From: Leuctra nigra
Lineage: Eukaryota > Arthropoda > Insecta > Plecoptera > Leuctridae
Reading direction: 5' to 3'
DNA: 64,000 nucleotides
NCBI GenBank assembly: GCA_934045905.1
Contig: OW203766.1
Coordinates: forward strand, 25,352,309 to 25,416,308
A model generated the notes under the pieces. That model did no database searches, had not been told where the DNA came from, and saw nothing but the letters and a program-made list of their open reading frames with translations. The translations under genes and the position numbers were made by a program. Positions 916-63,964 of this stretch are shown here, piece after piece (the first letter of the stretch is position 1; every line of letters begins with the position of its first letter).

Positions 916-1081
916 CTATAAGGAGAAATTATTCAAATGGGAGAAATTATTTAGATTTATTTAGATTTATTTTGTACACATCTTACAAGTAGTGGGTATC
1001 CACAAGGTGGTAAGGAACAACAGTAAAATGAAAATTAATAATATGGTATAATAAATAATAGAGCCAGCTCTCAAGGTCCTT

Positions 1082-2920
1082 CTAATTCTTGTTGTCTTCA
1101 CTTCCTTCATCACCGTCCTCCTCGTTCTTAGATGTCACCATATGTCGAAACTCTTTTACAGATATGTCAGTCATATCAAAGTGTTGCAATTTGTTCCAGT
1201 CACGAACGGTTCTGGCCAAAAATGAAAATCTACCGCAATCGGTTCGTGCAAAAAGTTCTTTTATCATGTGACTTGAGGTTGTTCTTCCTTGACGTTTTTC
1301 TTCTAACTTTCCAGCACATTCAGACCATCCAATATTGCCATTTCTCATTTTAAACATATTGCATAACCTTGCAGTCTTCCTTCTGCTTTCTAAAGTTTCC
1401 CATTCCAATTCCTTCATCATTTCATTGGGACTTTCCCAAACAACATTCAAAACACCTCTCTCATTCCGTTCCTTCTTCCACTTCTTTACTCTACCAGTCA
1501 CCCTTCTAGCCGCAATTTTTTGAATATTTTCTAGTGACCTAACTGCATTTTCTCGGTAAGGGTCCCATATGGCACCTCCATATTCCAGAAGAGGTCTCAA
1601 GAGTGTCTTATATGCCATGTTTTTCGTAGCTATGCTTGCTCCCATCAAGTTTCTATAGACAAAATTTATGTTTTTAAGGGCTTTACTGGCAACTAGACTT
1701 ATATGGTCTTTCCACTCCAAAGTTTCATCAATCCAGACTCCAAGGTATTTGTAGCCATTCATCACTTGCAGTGTCTGCTCAGCAATGGAATATTTGGCAG
1801 GATTACTTTTTCTGGCTCGCGTATAACTCACAACTACGCACTTCTTCACATTCAAGCTCATTTCATTCTTAATCATCCATTCATTGATCACTTCCAAGTC
1901 ATGTTGAAGATCCTGCTCATCTTCTTCATTACTAATCTTCCGATAGACAACTAAATCATCAGCGAAGAGTCGAACAGGTGACTGTACATTTGATACTAGA
2001 TCATTTATGTAAATGAGAAACAGTAATGGGCCTAGAACGCTACCTTGAGGTACTCCGGAAGTGACTTGTATACTGTCTGACAGGGTGTTTCCAACTTTGA
2101 CCCTTTGTTCTCTCCCTAAAAGAAATGCTTCCAGTACTTGAATGACTGCATCGTTTGGAACTATTGATTTAACTTTTGAAATGAGTATCTTGTGGTGAAC
2201 CTTATCAAATGCTTTCATCATGTCCAAATATACTGCATCCACTCGTTCTCCACTATCCAGTGCATCAGACAGTTCTTGTACGAAGCCAGTAAGTTGCGTC
2301 TCACACGAGAAATTTGCCCTGAAGCCGTGTTGTGCTTCTATGATCCAATTCTTTTCAACTAATATTTGCCAGATGTATTGGTTAATTAGTTTCTCCAGGA
2401 TTTTGCACGCAAGGGACGTAAGACTAATGGGTCGGTAATTGGTCAGTCGGCACTTCTCACCGCCTTTAAAGATTGGAATAACAATTGCCTTCTTCCAGTC
2501 AATTGGAATTGCACCATCTTTTATTACTTGAGTATACAGGTGGAAAAGGTATTTGGAGATAATGTAACCACCCAATTTGAAGAAGCGAGCTGTTAGTCCA
2601 TCCTCGCCGGGGGCTTTTCCATTTTTGAGTTTGCGAATAATGTCGAGAACTCCTGCAACACTAATGGAAAATGGATATGCTCCCATTGAAACTCCCGCAT
2701 TTACGTCTTCATTCAAATGGCAATGATTTTTATTAAATACATTGGAGTAGAAAATGTTCAATTCGTTTGCCTTCTCTTCATTAGTCGAAAACTCTGTGCC
2801 ATCTGTTCCTACTAAAGTTGGTAAATCTCTTCCACCCGTTCCACCCTTTTGCTGACGTACATGTTTATACAGCATGGACCATCCGCCTGCTTCATCATCT
2901 TTTCGAAACATGTTTTTCAT
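1082..2920 (-). CDS. LINE ORF2, reverse transcriptase part
   Basis: A 612-residue frame with the non-LTR RT motifs in order: NYRPISLTSLACKILEKLI (about 161-179), GFRANFSCETQL (199-210), YLDMMKAFDKVHH with the first catalytic Asp (231-243), SGVPQGSVLGPLL (288-300), the FADD catalytic box (319-322) and a YLGVWID thumb-side motif. The C-terminus carries an RTVRDWNKLQ block typical of CR1/Jockey-group elements. It reverse-transcribes the element RNA at the nicked target. Its ATG overlaps the TGA of the endonuclease frame (ATGA), but this is probably not a real start: the frame continues upstream with sensible lysine-rich sequence to an A8 run at 3078-3085, where the endonuclease frame shifts. Confidence 0.9.
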   Translation of the reverse strand: MKNMFRKDDEAGGWSMLYKHVRQQKGGTGGRDLPTLVGTDGTEFSTNEEKANELNIFYSNVFNKNHCHLNEDVNAGVSMGAYPFSISVAGVLDIIRKLKNGKAPGEDGLTARFFKLGGYIISKYLFHLYTQVIKDGAIPIDWKKAIVIPIFKGGEKCRLTNYRPISLTSLACKILEKLINQYIWQILVEKNWIIEAQHGFRANFSCETQLTGFVQELSDALDSGERVDAVYLDMMKAFDKVHHKILISKVKSIVPNDAVIQVLEAFLLGREQRVKVGNTLSDSIQVTSGVPQGSVLGPLLFLIYINDLVSNVQSPVRLFADDLVVYRKISNEEDEQDLQHDLEVINEWMIKNEMSLNVKKCVVVSYTRARKSNPAKYSIAEQTLQVMNGYKYLGVWIDETLEWKDHISLVASKALKNINFVYRNLMGASIATKNMAYKTLLRPLLEYGGAIWDPYRENAVRSLENIQKIAARRVTGRVKKWKKERNERGVLNVVWESPNEMMKELEWETLESRRKTARLCNMFKMRNGNIGWSECAGKLEEKRQGRTTSSHMIKELFARTDCGRFSFLARTVRDWNKLQHFDMTDISVKEFRHMVTSKNEEDGDEGSEDNKN

Positions 2921-3984
2921 GAATTTATCCTTTGCCTTAGCCTTTTCCTGATTAAGTCTTTTAGTGAGAAGTTTAAGTTTCTCCTTGTAGCCGCCCCTAA
3001 ACTTTCCTCTATTGTAATGATTTCGAACCTTTCTTTTGAGTTTCTTGATTTTTTCGTTATAGTACTGTGGGTCACTATTTTTTTTAACACAAGTTGAGGA
3101 ATGTGGTGTACCATCGCGGCTTTACAGATATTCAAGAATCCATCCCAAAGTTCTTCAACGTTCTTGTCTACAGATGCCCAATCAGAGAAATTGTAGCTTA
3201 ACTCATCTTGAAGTCCTCTTCTATTGGTTTTCTTGTAACACCATACTACTGCTTTTGTCTCCGCCTCAGTAACCAAGCCATTCATATCACATTCGACTTC
3301 AACGATGACTGCCTTGTGATCGCTCAGATCTACCTCAACAACATCACTTCTAAGCAGACTGTCTATTGGATTAATCAACACCACATCCAACAGGTTGCTC
3401 CTGGTCCCATCAATCATCCTTGTGCCCTCCTTTACAACTTGTTCATAACCTTGATTCATGATGGAGTAAACTACTCCCTGCTTAGTAATTACATTCGTAG
3501 CAATTCCATGTTTCCATTCAATTTCTGGAAAATTGAGGTCACCGGCCACTATTGTCCTCTGATTGATGTCCTGTCGCTGCAGATGGTCATTCAATCTTTG
3601 AAGAAACTCAATGCCACCGGTGCCACTTCTGTAGGTACCTATGACATTAATCGTCTTGCTTTTACTAGTACTGATTGCGACGCATATCATTTCAAAATTG
3701 TCATCAGTCCAGAGAACTTTTCCTTTCAGTTCATGCTTGGTGCCAATCATCACTCCTCCACCATGTCTGTTGCGATCATTTCTATGAAGTGTGTAATTTG
3801 CCAGAGATACTTCGCTGTTGTTTATATCTTGACTCAACCACGTTTCAACAACAACAAACAAGTCGGGATCATAAGTCTCGACAATGGTTCGGAAATTATC
3901 AATCTTCTTTAAAATACTTCTAGAGTTGATTAGTAACAGCCGTACCGCATTTCGCTGATTAATCACATCGCCCTTTTCCCTCAC
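2917..3984 (-). CDS. LINE ORF2, apurinic-like endonuclease part (frameshifted from RT)
   Basis: A 355-residue frame with an exonuclease/endonuclease/phosphatase fold: LLLINSRSILKK near the N-terminus, VVVETWLS with the catalytic Glu (about 47), GGGVMIG, VAGDLNF with Asp and Asn (149 and 151) and LSDHKAV with Asp and His (222 and 223). All expected catalytic residues are present. In these LINEs the domain nicks target DNA and is fused to the RT. Here the frame is intact to about residue 300, then runs out of register at eight consecutive A (minus strand, 3085-3078) and ends at a TGA at 2917. No ATG is seen close to the frame start; the listed start is a GTG and translation may begin upstream, overlapping the end of ORF1. 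Confidence 0.85.
   Translation of the reverse strand: MREKGDVINQRNAVRLLLINSRSILKKIDNFRTIVETYDPDLFVVVETWLSQDINNSEVSLANYTLHRNDRNRHGGGVMIGTKHELKGKVLWTDDNFEMICVAISTSKSKTINVIGTYRSGTGGIEFLQRLNDHLQRQDINQRTIVAGDLNFPEIEWKHGIATNVITKQGVVYSIMNQGYEQVVKEGTRMIDGTRSNLLDVVLINPIDSLLRSDVVEVDLSDHKAVIVEVECDMNGLVTEAETKAVVWCYKKTNRRGLQDELSYNFSDWASVDKNVEELWDGFLNICKAAMVHHIPQLVLKKIVTHSTITKKSRNSKERFEIITIEESLGAATRRNLNFSLKDLIRKRLRQRINS
3078..3085 (-). other. A8 run at the ORF2 frameshift
   Basis: Eight A residues in the minus-strand reading. Upstream the endonuclease frame is open; downstream the lysine-rich linker that leads into the RT is in another frame. A single-base length change here accounts for the break. It may be a mutation, an assembly error or a slippery site. 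Confidence 0.7.
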
Positions 3985-4013
3985 AACCCATTGTGCATTT
4001 CCTTCAAGACCAG

Positions 4014-5843
4014 TTAACGCAACCAGTTTCCCGAGAAATTGGCATTGTTTTTAACACGAATCATGCTTTTACCAAAATCCTTGAATATTTCCAGCCAAGT
4101 GTTTTCTCCTAAGTTGTTCAATCTATTCCCGTCCGCTTTCATTTCTCTGGCTCCAATGTGTTGACCAGGATCTACAAACCAACCTCCTTTTCGAATAACT
4201 TCCTCCCTTATGATACAGTTCATTCTGCATACTGTCGCAATTCCTAGATCTTTCCTCAATGGAACTCCACTGGCACAGATTTCAGCTCCCTTAAATGTCT
4301 CCTTGACTACTCGTAGCAGATTTGCAAAGTCATTAACAAGATTCGCTGCATCTATTCCCAGCTTTGCATCTTGAACACCTACTTGGAGAAAGACAATGTC
4401 ATGTTTCATAGGTTCTTCTGGTTGAGACAATTGAAGCTGTTTTGTAAGTTCACTAATGCGAATGCCTGGGAATATTCTTGAGTCTTCATTCTTCCACAGA
4501 TGAAAATCTCTTGCATTGGCAAGGGTAGAGTCTCCCAAGAGAAGCATGGTTGGCATTATAATAGTTCTGTTACTTGTACCATGCGAGCGAGGACAGGATT
4601 CAATCCGTACTTGATTACTTTCAGCCGGTACTGTACTTGCGGTTACGGATACGGATATCGGATCATTTAGCAGTGTTTTATTTTCTGATTCGCCAAATCT
4701 CAAATCATAATCCTGAACTAAAGGTTTATTTGGTAGATGAATCATTGGTCTGTTCAGTGCGTTTGATCTTTGGTTCCTAGTCTTTGATGTCCACACCCTG
4801 CCTGTCTCATTATAATCCTTATCAGTATGATTATTTTGTGGATACGATTTTGATTGGATGCCATTTTGAACCTTTTGAGCATGTCTGTTCAGCACAGCTG
4901 TTGTTCTTGGATTTCTAGTCTTGGAATTGTCCGACGACCAGGCTACACTTCGTTGGGTACTCAACCTCTGCCCGGCATGCAGAGAATAGACCTTGATGAT
5001 AACGTCAGATTCTTTGAACGTATTTTCTAAAACACTCTTAACTAGGTCCCAGGTGAAACCATCAATTCCACAACCAATTTTCGGTAAAGCCAATTTTTTA
5101 ATGTCTTTTTCAATGCATATGGATTTTAGGCTTGATATAGTTTTTACAAAATCAATGAGAGTTGGCTTCCCAGAAGATTTTTCTTTCGTCACGAGATGAA
5201 AAATGGGTCTACCATCAACTTCTTGATACACTACTTCTCCGATATCCTTCTTTTGTGCCGCCAACAACTGACTGCCTCCAAATCTACTTTTAAATTGAAC
5301 AGCAATTCCACTTCCCATCACCAAGTCCTTCCCAACACAATGAGCGAATGCATAATCTGCTGGGGCATCAAATAAGTTGCCTCTGATAACATTAATACAT
5401 GAATTAGCAGGTAATTGGCGTAGTGATCTTGCGGTATCAGTAGAGATTACGTCAGTAATGCGAAGGATACCATCTTCAATCTCCGTCCCACTGTCTGCCA
5501 CGTCTGCTGTCGAGACTTCAAAGCTTACTTCATTGATTGCAGAGCAGAAGTTATTCATAGCATTCTTGTTTATTTGTCCTCCATCTAATGTACATTTATG
5601 CTCTACTCCTCGATCTTCACCCTCTTCAACTTCAACACCTTTCTTCTGTTCTTCTACATCTAGTGTCAAGACTTTAGCGCTGGTTTCATTGACTACGCAG
5701 AAAGAGTTAGAGATTTCAGAAGAATAATCGGTCGAGATTTGACTGTTCTCTCTTTTACTTCCTATATGAGATGCCAGGCTGACTACACCCTCTCTCAACT
5801 CTTGCACTTCATTTGACAACATATGCAGTGTTGTTTTCGTCAT
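4014..5843 (-). CDS. LINE ORF1 with TARG1/OARD1-like macro domain and SGNH-like domain
   Basis: A 609-residue intact frame ending 30 bases before ORF2. Residues 1-30 could form a short coiled coil. Residues about 149-288 are a macro domain of the TARG1/OARD1 type: INVIRGNLF, FAHCVGKDLVMGSGIAVQFK, FHLVTK and LPKIGCGID. Aligned with human OARD1 from memory, Lys220 matches catalytic Lys84 and Asp261 matches Asp125, so an ADP-ribosyl or O-acetyl-ADP-ribose hydrolase activity is plausible. Residues about 300-430 are a basic, Asn/Arg-rich linker. Residues about 433-585 look like the SGNH/GDSL esterase domain known in CR1-type ORF1: GDST with Ser439, FPGIRI, GVQD in place of GxND, and DGNRLN where DGxHLN is expected, so the catalytic His appears to be Arg574. 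The first ATG of a 14-bp tandem repeat at the start is followed by an early stop; the second opens this frame. Confidence 0.85.
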   Translation of the reverse strand: MTKTTLHMLSNEVQELREGVVSLASHIGSKRENSQISTDYSSEISNSFCVVNETSAKVLTLDVEEQKKGVEVEEGEDRGVEHKCTLDGGQINKNAMNNFCSAINEVSFEVSTADVADSGTEIEDGILRITDVISTDTARSLRQLPANSCINVIRGNLFDAPADYAFAHCVGKDLVMGSGIAVQFKSRFGGSQLLAAQKKDIGEVVYQEVDGRPIFHLVTKEKSSGKPTLIDFVKTISSLKSICIEKDIKKLALPKIGCGIDGFTWDLVKSVLENTFKESDVIIKVYSLHAGQRLSTQRSVAWSSDNSKTRNPRTTAVLNRHAQKVQNGIQSKSYPQNNHTDKDYNETGRVWTSKTRNQRSNALNRPMIHLPNKPLVQDYDLRFGESENKTLLNDPISVSVTASTVPAESNQVRIESCPRSHGTSNRTIIMPTMLLLGDSTLANARDFHLWKNEDSRIFPGIRISELTKQLQLSQPEEPMKHDIVFLQVGVQDAKLGIDAANLVNDFANLLRVVKETFKGAEICASGVPLRKDLGIATVCRMNCIIREEVIRKGGWFVDPGQHIGAREMKADGNRLNNLGENTWLEIFKDFGKSMIRVKNNANFSGNWLR

Positions 5844-6210
5844 CTTTTGTTCGTCATCTTTTGTTACTATGCTTCTTAGGTCGGGTAGGACTAACTAACA
5901 TTGGAAACCCGACCCTTTCTCTCATTAAGAGCTTGGTTTCAAAACTATTGAATTTGAACAGTTGATTGGGAAAGATTACCGTGCCAATAACCAAATAAAG
6001 TTCTAGAATGACCATTTGCATTAAGCAACTGTTAAACTTAGATATTGATTTAACAAAGCAATGAAAAACCAGCCCCAACATCGAAATATGTAAAATGTCT
6101 CGTTTACATTTCCGGCGTGAAGAAGTGAACAAGCTAATCTTTATACTTTGCTATGATGTAGGTTGGTTTTCCAGCACTATGTAAGAGTATAAGCTAAAAC
6201 GTCCGTCCGT

Positions 6211-6292
6211 CCGCCAGCCTGCGTAGCTCAGTTGGTAGAACTCTCGCCCGGCAAGTGAGAGGTTCCGGGTTAGAGCCTCGGATCGGACAGAC
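6211..6292 (+). repeat. tRNA-like dispersed element, copy A
   Basis: Contains TAGCTCAGTTGGTAGA (A-box-like), TCGCCCGGCAAGTGA and a degraded B box (GGGTTAGAGCCTCGG), flanked by CGTCCGTCCGTCCG and CGGACAGAC. It is related to copies at 23617-23692 and 51934-52009, with less complete acceptor pairing. It is a tRNA-derived repeat, not a functional tRNA gene. Confidence 0.6.
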
Positions 6293-6370
6293 ATTTTTAC
6301 TAAACACGAAACTCAAAGGCAAGGATGTACAGTCTGAACCAGCGTATAACTATATGATATCTATACTTAC

Positions 6371-22600: not shown

Positions 22601-24475
22601 GAGAAAGAGTTGTTACAAGCCAGTTGTAGCCAGTTACAAGCTTCAGAGATGAAATTTCTTAGGAGTGCGAAAGAGTGACGAAGTTCGACAGAATTAGTAG
22701 TTTAAAGATTAGGAAGGAATTGGATGTGGAGAGATTGGGATTTAAGTGGGGGGGGGGGGGGGGGGGGGGATTGAGGTGGTTTGGTAACATGAAGAGAATG
22801 GAATTGAAAGGATGGCCAGAACAGAGCTGGAATCAATAATGCTACTAGAAGTGTTGAAGGCCTAGTAGAGCACAGTGGAAGAGTTTGATTGAAGAAGATG
22901 TGAGCACAAGAGGGGAAGACTGGAAGATGGTTGAGGAGGAACGTTGATGGGAGGAAGAAAGTGAGGAGGGAAAAGAGTCTGAAGTAATTTCAACCTGTCC
23001 GGCTAACCGGTTGAGACATTTTAGCCTTAGTATGTCTGGTTAGACAATGAATGTATGTTGTATGTAAAGTGTCTATTGTCTAACCCTGACCCAATTTTTT
23101 TTGTAACCGGGGTTTGTTCAAATATAAAATTCCTTTTGATGCTTTGAAACTGTTCTTGCAATTCAGAATAATAACAAGTCCTCCCGGTTTTGCTGTTTCG
23201 TTAAAACAACGACTCACCCCTTTTTTAGATTATGATCGCTGGTCCTATACACAAGTTGTAACGTACACTCCCCCAAATAATAAACGGTACTTGGTACAAA
23301 ACGTATTGGCTGCTGGGCCGGTTCCTTGACAATCAATCCTTGTTATTATCAATGAAATCAGAGCTCACCTAAAAGAGTTAGATAATGCGTTAGCACTGAC
23401 TTCATGGGATGATGCCATCAAACCTTAATCAGTCAATTCATTTTCTTTCGAGTACCGTTTATTATTTGGGGGAGTGTACATATTGGAGGAACAAAATATA
23501 ATTATTAAATAAACGACGCAATCCACTCACAAGCTCGGCGAGGTCCAATAAGATAGACAGAATGTCCATATCGCAAGGCCATTTATATAATTCATTGCAC
23601 AGTTATTGATTACAGTCCGACCGGGTAGCTCAGTTGGTAGAGCTCTCGCCCGGCAAGTGAGATGTGCCGGGTTCGAGCCCCGGTTCGGTCGGATATTTTT
23701 CACAACGCACATCCCTTCCTATCATCCTGCCTCCATGGAAGTTTTCCACAGAAACCTACATTCTCATAAGAAGAACTCTGGCACCCTAATATCCTGTTCA
23801 CACGTAGAATTCGATCATGATCCAGTTCATAATTACAATCGAAATCAAAATGGAGGCAAGATTCAAGTTAAACTTTATAATGCTTGTTACATGCATATTA
23901 CAGCATGCATTGCTGTGCATTGCGAAAACTTACAAATTGTGTAAGTTTTCGTTTTTAAAATTCATGATTTCTTTTGTTTGACCTTGAGTTCGATCATGAT
24001 TCAGATTTCGATTGCGTTCTTACAACTCAATCGAGATTTGGATCATGATCGAATCCTCAGTGTGAACAGGGTATAACTCCCCTGCCGTTTGCTCGAGAAG
24101 GTCGGCCATAGGGCAAGGGTCGGGAAGTTGTGGGCCGGGCCGGGCCGCTTATTTTTTACGTTGACTAACTGATTTCGAGACTAATACCTGTGCGAATACC
24201 CTTTGTATCGTATTCGTTACTTGAAATGAAATATGGGAGACTTCAACTATAATTGTCGTATTTTTAAGTTATAAATGCAAGTTACAATATTTGAGATTCA
24301 AATTGAAATTTGTTTTGTTTAGAGTGATTATGGTGGTGGACTGCAGGTCAAGAAGGACGGCGTCTACACGTTGGTCGGGGTTGCTTCAATAGTGCTAGAA
24401 GGCAAATGTCAATTACCCGGAATTTACGCTGCTACCTCCAAATTCCTGGGATGGATCAACAAAATTATTAAATAA
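19687..24475 (+). CDS. Serine protease homologue 3 (inactive S1 domain), five coding exons
   Basis: Exons: 19687-19747, 20523-20715, 21198-21442, 21848-21987, 24323-24475; all GT-AG (263 residues). The signal peptide is MKVLATLIIFYAIGMTGVFG. The activation-like site is FK|VTGG instead of PK|IPGG. All triad positions are changed: Lys80 (TAKTC), Gln123 (SRQLVLL) and Tyr216 (SDYGGGL). The extra Cys before HIRPICLP seen in its two relatives is Thr here. Introns are much longer than in genes 1 and 2 because of insertions: a MITE in intron 1, a palindrome element in intron 2, and LINE, MITE and tRNA-like pieces in intron 4. The intact frame argues for selection despite the load. It is predicted to be secreted and non-catalytic. 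Confidence 0.92.
20031..20135 (-). mobile_element. 3' end fragment of the palindrome/CTAG element
   Basis: In intron 1 of SPH gene 3, inverted: CTAGTGGAGCGGTCGCTCCA then CAGCCAAGTCGTACCGTACA, matching 34097 onward. A GC-rich hairpin (AGCCCGCA...TGCGGGCT) lies just left at about 19862-19898. Confidence 0.65.
20174..20382. mobile_element. MITE with GC-rich internal duplication
   Basis: In intron 1 of SPH gene 3. The ends are approximate inverses (CCGCGGCGTTTTTTTCTCAA and TTGAGAAACAACGCCGAGG) and include an inverted AAGGATA. Inside, ATAACTTCGCGGAAAATAGC occurs twice in tandem with CAGGCAGCGC. Confidence 0.6.
20728..21124. repeat. Palindrome module, older copy in SPH gene 3 intron 2
   Basis: Arms of about 155 bp (20728-20883 and 20968-21124) facing each other around GGCGCATCG/CGATTCGCC. 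The arms differ at many places (for example TATTATCCAAATC against TGGGCCAAGTC), unlike the younger copies at 13093, 35025 and 51454. No CTAG body is attached. Confidence 0.7.
22615..22995 (+). pseudogene. Decayed LINE reverse transcriptase C-terminus
   Basis: In intron 4 of SPH gene 3. Pieces in different frames read EMKFLRSAKE, LRWFGNMKRM and IEEDVSTRGEDWKMVEEER, the familiar tail of insect endonuclease-reverse transcriptases. Stops, frameshifts and a 22-base G run (22748-22769) interrupt it. Confidence 0.7.
23266..23476. mobile_element. 211-bp MITE with TA target duplication, copy 1
   Basis: Inverted ends CACTCCCCCAAATAATAAAC / GTTTATTATTTGGGGGAGTG, flanked by TA on both sides. A near-identical 211-bp copy is at 39813-40023. 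TA duplication suggests a Tc1/mariner-type non-autonomous element. Confidence 0.8.
23617..23692 (+). repeat. tRNA-like dispersed element, copy B
   Basis: 76 bases that fold as a tRNA: CCGACCG/CGGTCGG acceptor stem, GCTCAGTTGGTAGAGC D arm, CTCGC-CCGGCAA-GTGAG anticodon arm (GGC in anticodon position, C instead of U at position 33) and CCGGGTTCGAGCCCCGG T arm. The 3' flank (ATATTTTTCACAAC.CACATC) is shared with copy C at 51934. Because it is repeated with its flank and lacks U33, it is read as a tRNA-derived transposable sequence rather than a tRNA gene. Confidence 0.7.
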
Positions 24476-51933: not shown

Positions 51934-52009
51934 CCGATCGGGTAGCTCAGTTGGTAGAGCTCTCGCCCGGCAAGTGAGAGGTCCCAAGTTCGTGCCCCGG
52001 TTCGGTCGG
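51934..52009 (+). repeat. tRNA-like dispersed element, copy C
   Basis: 76 bases with acceptor CCGATCG/CGGTCGG, D arm GCTCAGTTGGTAGAGC and the same anticodon arm as copy B, but a broken T arm (CCAAGTTCGTGCCCC). It shares the 3' flank ATATTTTTCACAACACACAT with copy B. Its upstream flank (GGAAAACTTCCATGGAG) is the inverse of sequence downstream of copy B, so the parent element was probably a foldback. Confidence 0.65.
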
Positions 52010-62200: not shown

Positions 62201-63964
62201 ACCTCAGTACCGAAGTATGTCCCGGGAACCGAACCCGAAAATTCCGGAGTACAAGTCCACTTCCCGTGATCCTCGGTACGGCAGGTTGGCGATAGCGGCG
62301 TACCCGGCGTGACTGTGTCCGATGACGTGGATGTCGGAGACGCCGGCGCCACGGAGGGCGGCGAGAAGACCTCTTCTACACAACTTGCTCCACTCACCTG
62401 TGATCCTCGGCAGGAGGTACGGCAGGTTGGCGATGGCGGCGTACCCGGTGTGACTGTGTCCGATGACGTGGAAGTCGGAGACGCCGGCGCCACGGAGGGC
62501 GGCGAGAAGACCTCCTGTACACAACTTGCTCCACTCACCTGTGATCCTCGGCAGAAGGTACGGCAGGTTGGCGATGGCGGCGTACCCGGCGATGTGCGCG
62601 CCGAGACTGTGCCCGATGACGTGGATGTCGGAAACGCCGGCGCCACGGAGGGCGGCGAGAAGACCTCCTGTACACGCGCCGACGTGCTTGGCATTCAAGG
62701 CGGTGGTCGGGTAGCAGAGCAGAGTGCTGGCCTGAGCGAGGTACAACCAGTCGACGCTGATCAGGTTGTAGTCGCCGTTGAGCAGGAACTCTGTGTAGGA
62801 GAGTGTAGAACATAAGCGCCAATAACTTGATATTACAGCAATATGTCCGGGAAGTAGACGGAATTTGAAGGAGTCAAAACTGAACGCCATGATTCAGAAA
62901 AGTAAAAAATGCCCAGTTGTGTAATAAAAATAATAATAAATAGTGCGCTGTGACGAGGTTGTTATGAATGATAAGGGACAGAGAGTTTACTTGTCTCTAG
63001 TCACTGTGTCACGGTGTGTTTATTACTTATTAGCCGGTTAGCTGCTATCTGTGTTGTGATTGAGCTGGCGGTTGGTTTGTTTACATCAGCTGTTTTTATC
63101 TGGGGTTTGGCGGTCGAGGTGGATTTCACGTCAGTGTGCACCTGATGAAGAAGATAGAAACATCTTCGAAATATTGTGTGGTTTTAAAATACCGGAGTCA
63201 GTCCAAAGATTGTTGTGTGGTTTTATTTAACGTGGCTCAATCGATCGAACATTCCAAAATATTTATTTTTTGAAATTACCCTCATGAATTACTTTTCCCA
63301 ACATTTCAACTATATTTAAGTATAAAAGAATCATAAAATCTTATTCAACTTGCAACTCCTGTCTTACAGCGAGGTTTCAATTTATTGCCTTTCGAGATTG
63401 AACAAAACTTTTAACACAGAAGGTAAGGGAAAACATTTCGTTTTTGGTTTGTAACTTTTAAAATTGCACACGTTGGTATTGTTTTCAATTTTTTCCTAAT
63501 AGAATGTCCAACTATCTATCATAAAATAAGTTTTTTCTTCAAAGTTGGGACAACATAAAAATTTAATCTACATTAATAGCCTAAATGTGACACGATTTTA
63601 CTTGTCCGCCATAAGATAACATGGAGAAGAAAACTCAAATTATCTCAGAAACTAGACTCGAGAAGTGTTTAATTTTTTCAATGATTTTGTATGGCATGAT
63701 TATCAATAAGTAGCCAAAAAAATATGAAACTCTGAGACTATGCCCAATTGGATGAGCCACCTTAATGAAATGAAACCATGTTGACTCAGGTATAACCCTA
63801 CCTTTGCGCATGGCAACAAAGTGCCAGTCCTTGGAGCTGCAATTCAGTCCATGGACGATAATCTTCGTGGGTCTCGAGAGAGAGAAGTTCGAAGACGTCA
63901 GATTGTTCGAGATCAGGTCAATCACTTGTCCCTCGGTAGGATGCGACCTTGAATCAGAGGACAT
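59210..63964 (-). CDS. Lipase of the pancreatic-lipase family (PF00151), five exons, 5' incomplete
   Basis: Exons in transcription order: 63964-63802, 62790-62539, 61328-61152, 60377-60203, 59273-59210; phases agree throughout (276 residues to the TAG). Domain marks: RPTKIIVHGLNCSS, GDYNLISVDWLYLAQA, the nucleophile elbow HVIGHSLGAHIAGYAA with the catalytic Ser, RITALDPLPWLF with the catalytic Asp, SFVDVIHT, GHVDFYVNGPFFQPGC, and FECSHWRSVLYFSESI with the catalytic His. The triad is complete, so the enzyme should hydrolyse acyl esters (triacylglycerol or phospholipid; the short inter-Cys region hints at phospholipase A1-like specificity, not certain). Just before the first listed exon is an in-frame TAG, so the acceptor AATAG must abut 63964 and the signal-peptide exon lies outside the window. 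Introns hold a Penelope-like end, a GC-rich repeat and two extra copies of the Ser exon. Confidence 0.9.
59545..59895 (+). repeat. GC-rich retrotransposon-tail-like repeat in lipase intron
   Basis: A sharply GC-rich block (GGGGGTCGACCTAACGGGCC ... GGCATGGGTAACCCTTACAC ... CCACCACGATAAGGTGACAG) in AT-rich surroundings. The end resembles, from memory, 3'UTRs of non-LTR elements with CATGGGTGACCC and CCACCACG motifs. Frames across it come from GC content. Confidence 0.4.
60475..60616. mobile_element. Short MITE, third copy
   Basis: Same family as 44532 and 58705: CATGGCAACAACCAACAATG inside, ending TAATGAAAGACTGGCCCTAA. Lies in the lipase intron. Confidence 0.5.
62279..62538 (-). pseudogene. 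Two extra tandem copies of the lipase catalytic-Ser exon
   Basis: The 141-bp unit (47 codons) containing GGLLAALRGAGVSD..HVIGHS and PRITG is repeated at 141-bp spacing downstream of the true exon. Both extra copies have lost four codons at the nucleophile elbow (GHSLGAHIAGYAA becomes GHSHTGYAA or GHSHAGYAA), and the last copy also loses the LLPR region and diverges. Each copy is preceded by TACAG-type sequence; only the first two units end in the donor GTGAGT. They read in frame with one another (minus 62890-62204), but normal splicing from the first donor at 62538 would skip them. Confidence 0.8.
63120..63235 (+). mobile_element. Penelope-like element 3' end
   Basis: CACCTGATGAAGAAGATAGA and AACATCTTCGAAATATTGTG are the characteristic 3' signature of Penelope-like elements. 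It is a short remnant in the lipase intron, unlike the family at 33270. Confidence 0.55.

Follow-up and report, generated by a model that had tools for sequence, protein, structure and literature searches.

A TARG1-type macro domain in ORF1 of a LINE and in Ty3/Gypsy-like elements of the stonefly Leuctra nigra

A stretch of 64,000 nucleotides from the stonefly Leuctra nigra (assembly GCA_934045905.1, contig OW203766.1, positions 25,352,309 to 25,416,308 of the forward strand; hereafter the window) contains a copy of a long interspersed nuclear element (LINE), whose first open reading frame (ORF1) carries a macro domain of the TARG1/OARD1 type. The domain has both catalytic residues of TARG1, it is present in many near-identical copies of the element, it is under constraint, and it occurs in elements of two classes, LINEs and Ty3/Gypsy-like elements. 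We think, with a probability of about 0.6, that selection has retained the macro domain because it works for the element as an ADP-ribosyl hydrolase; the hydrolase activity, its substrate and the benefit to the element are what we infer. The initial annotation of the window had proposed a TARG1-class domain in a LINE ORF1, and that part of it stood, whereas the spread of the domain over two LINE endonuclease types and a Ty3/Gypsy-like pol had been missed.

Residues 138-288 of the window ORF1 align without gaps to the structure of human OARD1/TARG1 (C6orf130, 2lgr; E 8.5e-36 in a phmmer search of the PDB), a somewhat longer segment than residues 149-288 given in the initial annotation. The assignment to the OARD1 class is clear, five OARD1 sequences were found with E-values from 8.5e-36 to 3.7e-34, and the next macro protein had 9.4e-8. 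The Pfam Macro profile was likewise significant (E 6.6e-7, 29.7 bits vs. a cut-off of 22). Lys220 and Asp261, which had been named as the catalytic residues, indeed fall on K84 and D125 of the human enzyme. K84 was described as the nucleophile making a lysyl-ADP-ribose intermediate, and D125 as the residue that resolves this intermediate (PMC6397177). The TARG1 pattern TKx(30,35)Px[IL]GxGxD, published in the same work (PMC6397177), is present in the window family (copy L031) and altogether in 28 of 50 scanned rows, a set in which P0001 and the host, human and partial rows were counted too.

The window element can be classified as a LINE because an APE-type endonuclease and a reverse transcriptase (RT) are encoded downstream of ORF1 (Table 1). 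The window copy is damaged, it suffered a 5' truncation within ORF1, and a frameshift separates ORF2 into an endonuclease and an RT frame. It is 99.898% identical to the sister copy L031 (4904 columns, 3 mismatches, 2 gap openings; blastn), in which ORF1 has 797 amino acids counted from the Met (803 from stop to stop) and ORF2 is a single 974-amino acid frame with endonuclease and RT; no RNase H was listed for this frame by Pfam at E 0.05. Eighteen genomic loci (L001-L018) were compared with L031; the window's own copy (L005) and the place of L031 itself (L001) are among them, and two places enter the count twice (L015/L016 and L017/L018). In seven of the 18 the 5' ends fall no more than 5 bp apart, at 1795-1799 of the L031 sense coordinates, and the identity to L031 is 99.86-99.95%; later 5' starts in others represent variable 5' truncation. 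From the common 5' ends at such high identity we conclude that the full element is about 5.7 kb long and young, and, judged from these copies, the family is a recently active, multi-copy LINE.

A search of the genome with the DNA of the macro segment gave 17 matches, 14 of which span the whole 459-base query: 13 are full-length with approximately 100% identity and one with 96%, the remaining three are partial. The concern raised in the initial annotation, that the segment might be present in this copy only, did not materialize, and a chimera or a lone odd copy was ruled out by the 17 DNA matches and the shared 5' ends. The LINE context proposed for ORF1, with an SGNH-like domain in ORF1 itself, the two ORF2 activities downstream and many copies, proved to be right. 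No clear target site duplication was seen by eye at the window copy (other copies were not searched); the sequence AACAAAAGATGACG occurs twice in tandem over its 5' junction (window 5838-5865). By eye, the copy sits in sense orientation in a trypsin-like minus-strand gene, within one of its introns.

Table 1. Features of the LINE copy in the window (window coordinates)
Feature	Position	Strand	Evidence
LINE copy, 5'-truncated, ~4.9 kb	952..5854	minus	blastn vs. sister copy L031
Truncated ORF1, 609 amino acids, without the N-terminal 188 residues of the 797-amino acid L031 ORF1	4014..5843	minus	
TARG1/OARD1-type macro domain, residues 140-288	4980..5426	minus	PDB phmmer 2lgr; Pfam Macro
Lys220 codon, human TARG1 K84, catalytic lysine	5184..5186	minus	alignments to human OARD1
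Asp261 codon, human TARG1 D125	5061..5063	minus	alignments to human OARD1
SGNH/GDSL-like domain, residues ~426-596 of window ORF1	4056..4568	minus	Lipase_GDSL_2; profile A3; alignment
APE-type endonuclease part of ORF2	2917..3984	minus	Pfam Exo_endo_phos 8e-12
RT part of ORF2; in the window copy its frame differs from that of the endonuclease	1082..2920	minus	Pfam RVT_1 1.5e-33
3' tail, short tandem repeats, AAATAAATCT-like	951..973	minus	read by eye

With the whole ORF1 as query, and any part of it counting as a match, the genome yielded at least 84 matches, many of them confined to the SGNH part (72 of 756 candidates scored); there were at least 76 with Pfam Macro (150 of 222 candidates scored) and at least 150 with human OARD1 (150 of 385 candidates scored). 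From these lists 27 longer and 20 short loci were picked by hand, and a macro row was obtained from 47/47. After dropping L058 (a host exon) and the partial or uncertain L044, L059, L060, L062, L071 and L082, clustering at 80% identity defined 36 macro families among the examined loci (less than 80% identity between families, median pairwise identity 36%, range 21-79%). The flanking sequences allowed the typing of 19 families, 13 as LINE and six as Ty3/Gypsy-like, 17 were left untyped; the 20 short loci (L065-L084) have flanks too short for element typing and showed only two SGNH matches. Ten of the LINE families (L031, L033, L034, L036, L038, L039, L040, L043, L053 and L054) have the endonuclease type of the window element, three (L041, L055 and L056) have a second, distant type.

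The six Ty3/Gypsy-like families (L045, L050, L051, L052, L057 and L061) were assigned from their flanks, L061 by its protease alone. In all four long stretches of this kind (L050, L051, L052 and L057) the macro domain lies between the aspartic protease and the RT; the Ty3/Gypsy order of protease, RT, RNase H and integrase is seen in L050, L051 and L052, and the L057 stretch stops after RNase H (Pfam). With the Pfam Macro profile L051, L052 and L057 were below the cut-off and L050 was not listed, all four were found with OARD1 or with the window macro domain, and the macro segment of L052 matched OARD1 with E 3.7e-40. L046-L049, which were top matches of the Pfam macro profile, have open frames of 64-101 amino acids and gave no significant match to OARD1.

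The two catalytic residues are well conserved among the 36 families: K84 is retained in 34, D125 in 31 and both in 31. No variation was seen at W129 and C107, and the other 21 Lys and Asp positions of the human enzyme are conserved at 30% on average. Nonsynonymous divergence (dN) was lower than synonymous divergence (dS) in all seven of the 12 compared pairs for which dS was defined (dN/dS 0.120/1.92, 0.264/1.37, 0.298/2.95, 0.382/2.17, 0.330/4.32, 0.006/0.041 and 0.057/0.118). In eight LINE families the identity of the macro domain tracks that of the endonuclease (r 0.59, Mantel p 0.006; r 0.75, p 0.004 without L053). The two domains diverged in step, thus in these eight families the macro domain has mostly been passed on together with the element. 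The pair L053 and L054 departs from this pattern, with 32% identity in the endonuclease and 52% in the macro domain, hinting at an exchange of the macro domain.

The occurrence of the macro domain in so many element families suggests that erasure of ADP-ribose helps their copying. We envisage that the ORF1 protein would carry the macro domain onto the RNA particle of the element, where it could strip off ADP-ribose placed by host PARPs on the RNA or nascent cDNA of the element or on proteins bound there, and removal of the ADP-ribose would keep reverse transcription or integration unblocked. Among the possible substrates we favour nucleic acid bases because published TARG1 acts on thymine and uracil. 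On DNA, TARG1 was reported to reverse the ADP-ribosylation of thymine, and the K84A mutant failed to rescue (PMC8501950); uracil-linked ADP-ribose in RNA was reversed by TARG1 and by the fly enzymes Targ1 and Targ3, other human hydrolases tested on RNA substrates showed little or no activity, and PARP10 was put forward as a candidate writer of the base-linked mark (PMC13036486). The element set consists of OARD1-like domains, and their TARG1 class would fit a nucleic acid substrate.

A protein close to the site of insertion is almost as probable a substrate. In the most specific form of this idea the hydrolase would act on Glu/Asp-linked ADP-ribose that PARP1 attaches at the nicked target, damping DNA-damage signalling. 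This is a special case of the hydrolase interpretation, the odds of the two overlap, and we consider it possible, though less likely than not. In vitro, Glu and Asp residues are freed from ADP-ribose by TARG1 (PMC8501950), and PARP-domain sequences are present in the genome (12 matches). Ty3/Gypsy elements integrate via an integrase and not by target-primed nicking. Taken alone, action at the nick leaves the presence of the domain in Ty3/Gypsy-like pol unexplained.

A number of observations weigh against a conserved hydrolase acting for the element. D125 has been lost in five of the 36 families, in two of these together with K84: the Asp is gapped in L033 and replaced by Asn in L050 and L083 (the latter typed only through its likeness to L050), and the Lys and Asp positions are occupied by Arg and Gly in L036 and by Arg and Glu in L065. 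Such motif-losing families are probably under-counted, because OARD1, the window ORF1 and the Pfam macro profile served as queries and the loci were chosen by hand among the scored matches. The dS value was undefined in five of the 12 pairs, among them the window family's own pair L031-L033, and in four of the other seven it was 1.9 or higher, i.e. saturated. L032, a close LINE relative (sister of L031 by endonuclease with 98/99 support, 68% endonuclease identity), gave no Macro match; it has SAP and GDSL matches below the cut-off and a PHD-like stretch recognized by eye. As far as its sequence tells, the macro domain is dispensable in L032, and since L033, L034, L036 and L039, which are further removed, do have it, the absence is best read as a single loss. 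Finally, the search of the stonefly genome gave no match to a DarT-like enzyme, and the 12 PARP matches are at the level of the domain.

Part of these observations would be accounted for if the macro domain were a reader of ADP-ribose, which tethers the ORF1 particle to ADP-ribosylated chromatin, e.g. to breaks marked by PARP1, and so helps it to find or hold target sites, hydrolysis being secondary or absent. The five families without D125, two of them with Arg in place of Lys84, have kept the rest of the domain, and PHD and SAP or SAP-like modules, which are usually chromatin-linked, are also present in ORF1s of the group. A pure reader has no need for the catalytic residues, however, and both are found in 31 families, far above the other Lys and Asp positions. 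We therefore regard a reader function as unlikely in general, it is possible in the few families that lack the catalytic residues. The lack of the domain in L032 and the Asn at position 125 in the Ty3/Gypsy-like rows L050 and L083 could also be seen as signs of a passenger, a captured gene piece without function or an artefact of assembly. This is very improbable in view of the many places on the chromosomes at which the 5' end and the order recur, the conservation of the catalytic residues, the dN values below dS and the several element types that carry the domain.

Besides the macro domain, the full-length ORF1 has PHD and SGNH-like domains. The order of Pfam matches in L031 ORF1 is PHD at 100-152 (at the cut-off), Macro at 359-459 and GDSL at 646-751 (below the cut-off), and by eye there is a SAP-like stretch ahead of the PHD and a coiled-coil-like stretch behind it. 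The window ORF1 matched Lipase_GDSL_2 below the cut-off (E 0.002) and, used alone, matched 4c1b, a structure entered as an ORF1-encoded protein, with E 0.16 only; a profile built from seven ORF1s (A3) found 4c1b as the best among solved structures with E 6.1e-13. In the window clade the GDS motif is kept, DGNR stands at the position of the Asp-x-x-His of active SGNH enzymes and the catalytic His is gone, whereas L039, L041 and L053 retain DGVH or DGLH. The domain of the window family is thus SGNH-like but probably not an active esterase, and for this reason the macro domain, rather than the SGNH domain, looks like the working enzyme of the window-family ORF1.

The layout of ORF1 varies, PHD-macro-SGNH was found in L031, L033 and L035, SAP-macro-SGNH in L041, macro-SGNH in L053 and L055, and SAP-macro followed by an RRM-like C-terminus (by eye) in L040. 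Below the cut-off, Pfam OSK matched the SGNH-like domains of L033 (4249-6573, E 0.0011) and L035 (638-3331, E 0.013), which points to a possible link between LINE ORF1 and the SGNH domains of the Oskar type; OSK is the domain of Oskar, which has been termed a non-catalytic SGNH protein (PMC3905857). Long in-frame tandem repeats (QYQSLQHCQPP and similar) are present downstream of the macro domain in the macro-bearing frames of L036 (1147-3831), L038 (1088-3805) and L055 (1447-4500).

The host OARD1 is a separate gene with an exon at approximately C8:32,880,109-32,880,216 and a GTGAGT donor, its next exon follows a TTTTTCAG acceptor and the two join in phase at FK-QNF. The macro domain of the element has no intron at this place. 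That a host gene was misread as a LINE was ruled out, endonuclease and RT follow in L031 and the intron-bearing OARD1 is elsewhere. The capture of a host gene, suggested in the initial annotation, agrees in broad terms with an OARD1-related domain that lacks the intron of host OARD1; a recent capture of the stonefly OARD1 finds no support, none of the 36 element-family rows joins host OARD1 on a supported branch of the macro tree. This tree of 55 rows, drawn without ten partial or near-duplicate rows and with P0001 recut, had weak support, with stars on 11 of its 52 inner branches and a bootstrap that had not settled. The uncertain row L060, outside the 36 families, joined host OARD1 at 80/76 on an unstarred branch. 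Like element types group together beyond chance: the LINE label required four changes vs. a mean of 9.0 after shuffling (equally low in 0/500), the Gypsy label four vs. 6.3 (equally low in 11/500). In approximately unbiased (AU) tests, done after removal of P0083, P0063 and L073, a single clade of the 36 genome rows vs. seven cellular OARD1 sequences was not rejected (p 0.36), nor was the grouping of 11 LINE rows vs. six Gypsy rows (p 0.365; reverse grouping p 0.456). The domain may have been captured once and then exchanged, or captured several times, both histories would be compatible with the tree and the AU tests.

It is of interest to compare the element domain with proteins of other organisms. 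Protein database searches gave one match among 334 candidates, 85 among 993 and four among 7994. P0088, an uncharacterized protein of 518 amino acids from the thrips Frankliniella occidentalis, was the only one of the last four with PHD (just below the cut-off), Macro and GDSL matches; its PHD-macro-SGNH order is that of the window family, and the Lys and Asp are retained. In P0006 (a JGI protein) an integrase zinc domain is joined to a macro domain. P0001 (503 amino acids, JGI) gave only a Macro match, below the cut-off; P0085 has an RT-like stretch behind the macro domain by eye, Pfam found in it only Macro (below the cut-off) and a weak Myb match; the beetle protein P0087 has no LINE feature recognizable by eye. 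Human TARG1/OARD1 and insect OARD1 share sequence and the catalytic Lys and Asp with the element domain, but the cellular proteins (P0009, P0011, P0018 and P0021) are approximately 150-190 amino acids long, whereas the element version is a module of ORF1 or of Ty3/Gypsy-like pol.

In architecture, and by this measure only, the window LINE resembles the CR1/L2 group, with which it has PHD, an SGNH/esterase-like domain, the APE endonuclease and RT in common; ORF1s of that group have a PHD (Type III) or an esterase (Type IV) (PMC4120745). The combination of PHD, macro and SGNH-like domains in a single insect ORF1 is unlike the types of Metcalfe and Casane, in whose 2014 survey the esterase type was limited to vertebrate subgroups of the Jockey superfamily set, and the words 'macro' and 'ADP-ribose' have 0 occurrences in the main text (PMC4120745). 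The SGNH part is akin, through profile A3, to the ORF1p esterase of zebrafish ZfL2-1 (4c1b), whose catalytic triad is conserved (PMC3905857); the window clade lacks the His that L039, L041 and L053 keep. The nearest precedent for macro domain proteins in reverse-transcribing elements is found in epsilon-like endogenous retroviruses of fish, where the domain is encoded in an additional open reading frame and not in LINE ORF1 or Ty3/Gypsy-like pol (PMC4977317). Among the matches listed in a search of the open literature, judged by title and start of the abstract, none dealt with a macro domain in LINE ORF1 or Ty3/Gypsy pol. The DarG antitoxin has a TARG1-like macrodomain that serves in a genetic conflict by erasing ADP-ribose from bases (PMC8501950); DarG is, however, the partner in a bacterial toxin-antitoxin pair, and the stonefly genome has no match to the DarT domain.

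Some further features of the window were noted. A tRNA-like repeat at approximately 6198-6308 is matched at least 43 times elsewhere in the genome with 82-97% identity (40 of 212 candidates scored), and is probably a tRNA-derived short interspersed nuclear element (SINE). The two tRNA-Ala (GGC) genes called by ARAGORN (23618-23692 and 51935-52009) may be SINE heads instead of genes. An open reading frame at 62204-62890 contains a lipase-like stretch (HVIGHS) that occurs three times in tandem.

That retroelements of different classes in the same genome share a constrained hydrolase domain points to some mark, set by the host, which impedes elements that rely on reverse transcription. It is conceivable, if doubtful, that ADP-ribosylation of bases restricts retroelements in insects, and that LINE and Ty3/Gypsy elements acquired a TARG1-class eraser as a counter-defence, much as DarG acts against DarT. 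Base-linked ADP-ribose has known animal erasers and a candidate writer, PARP10 (PMC13036486), and the elements described here would offer a natural case for studying the role of this modification. For the elements themselves, the macro domain is a further module beside PHD, RRM and esterase, which mark the ORF1 types already known, and it is common to LINEs and elements of the long terminal repeat (LTR) type.
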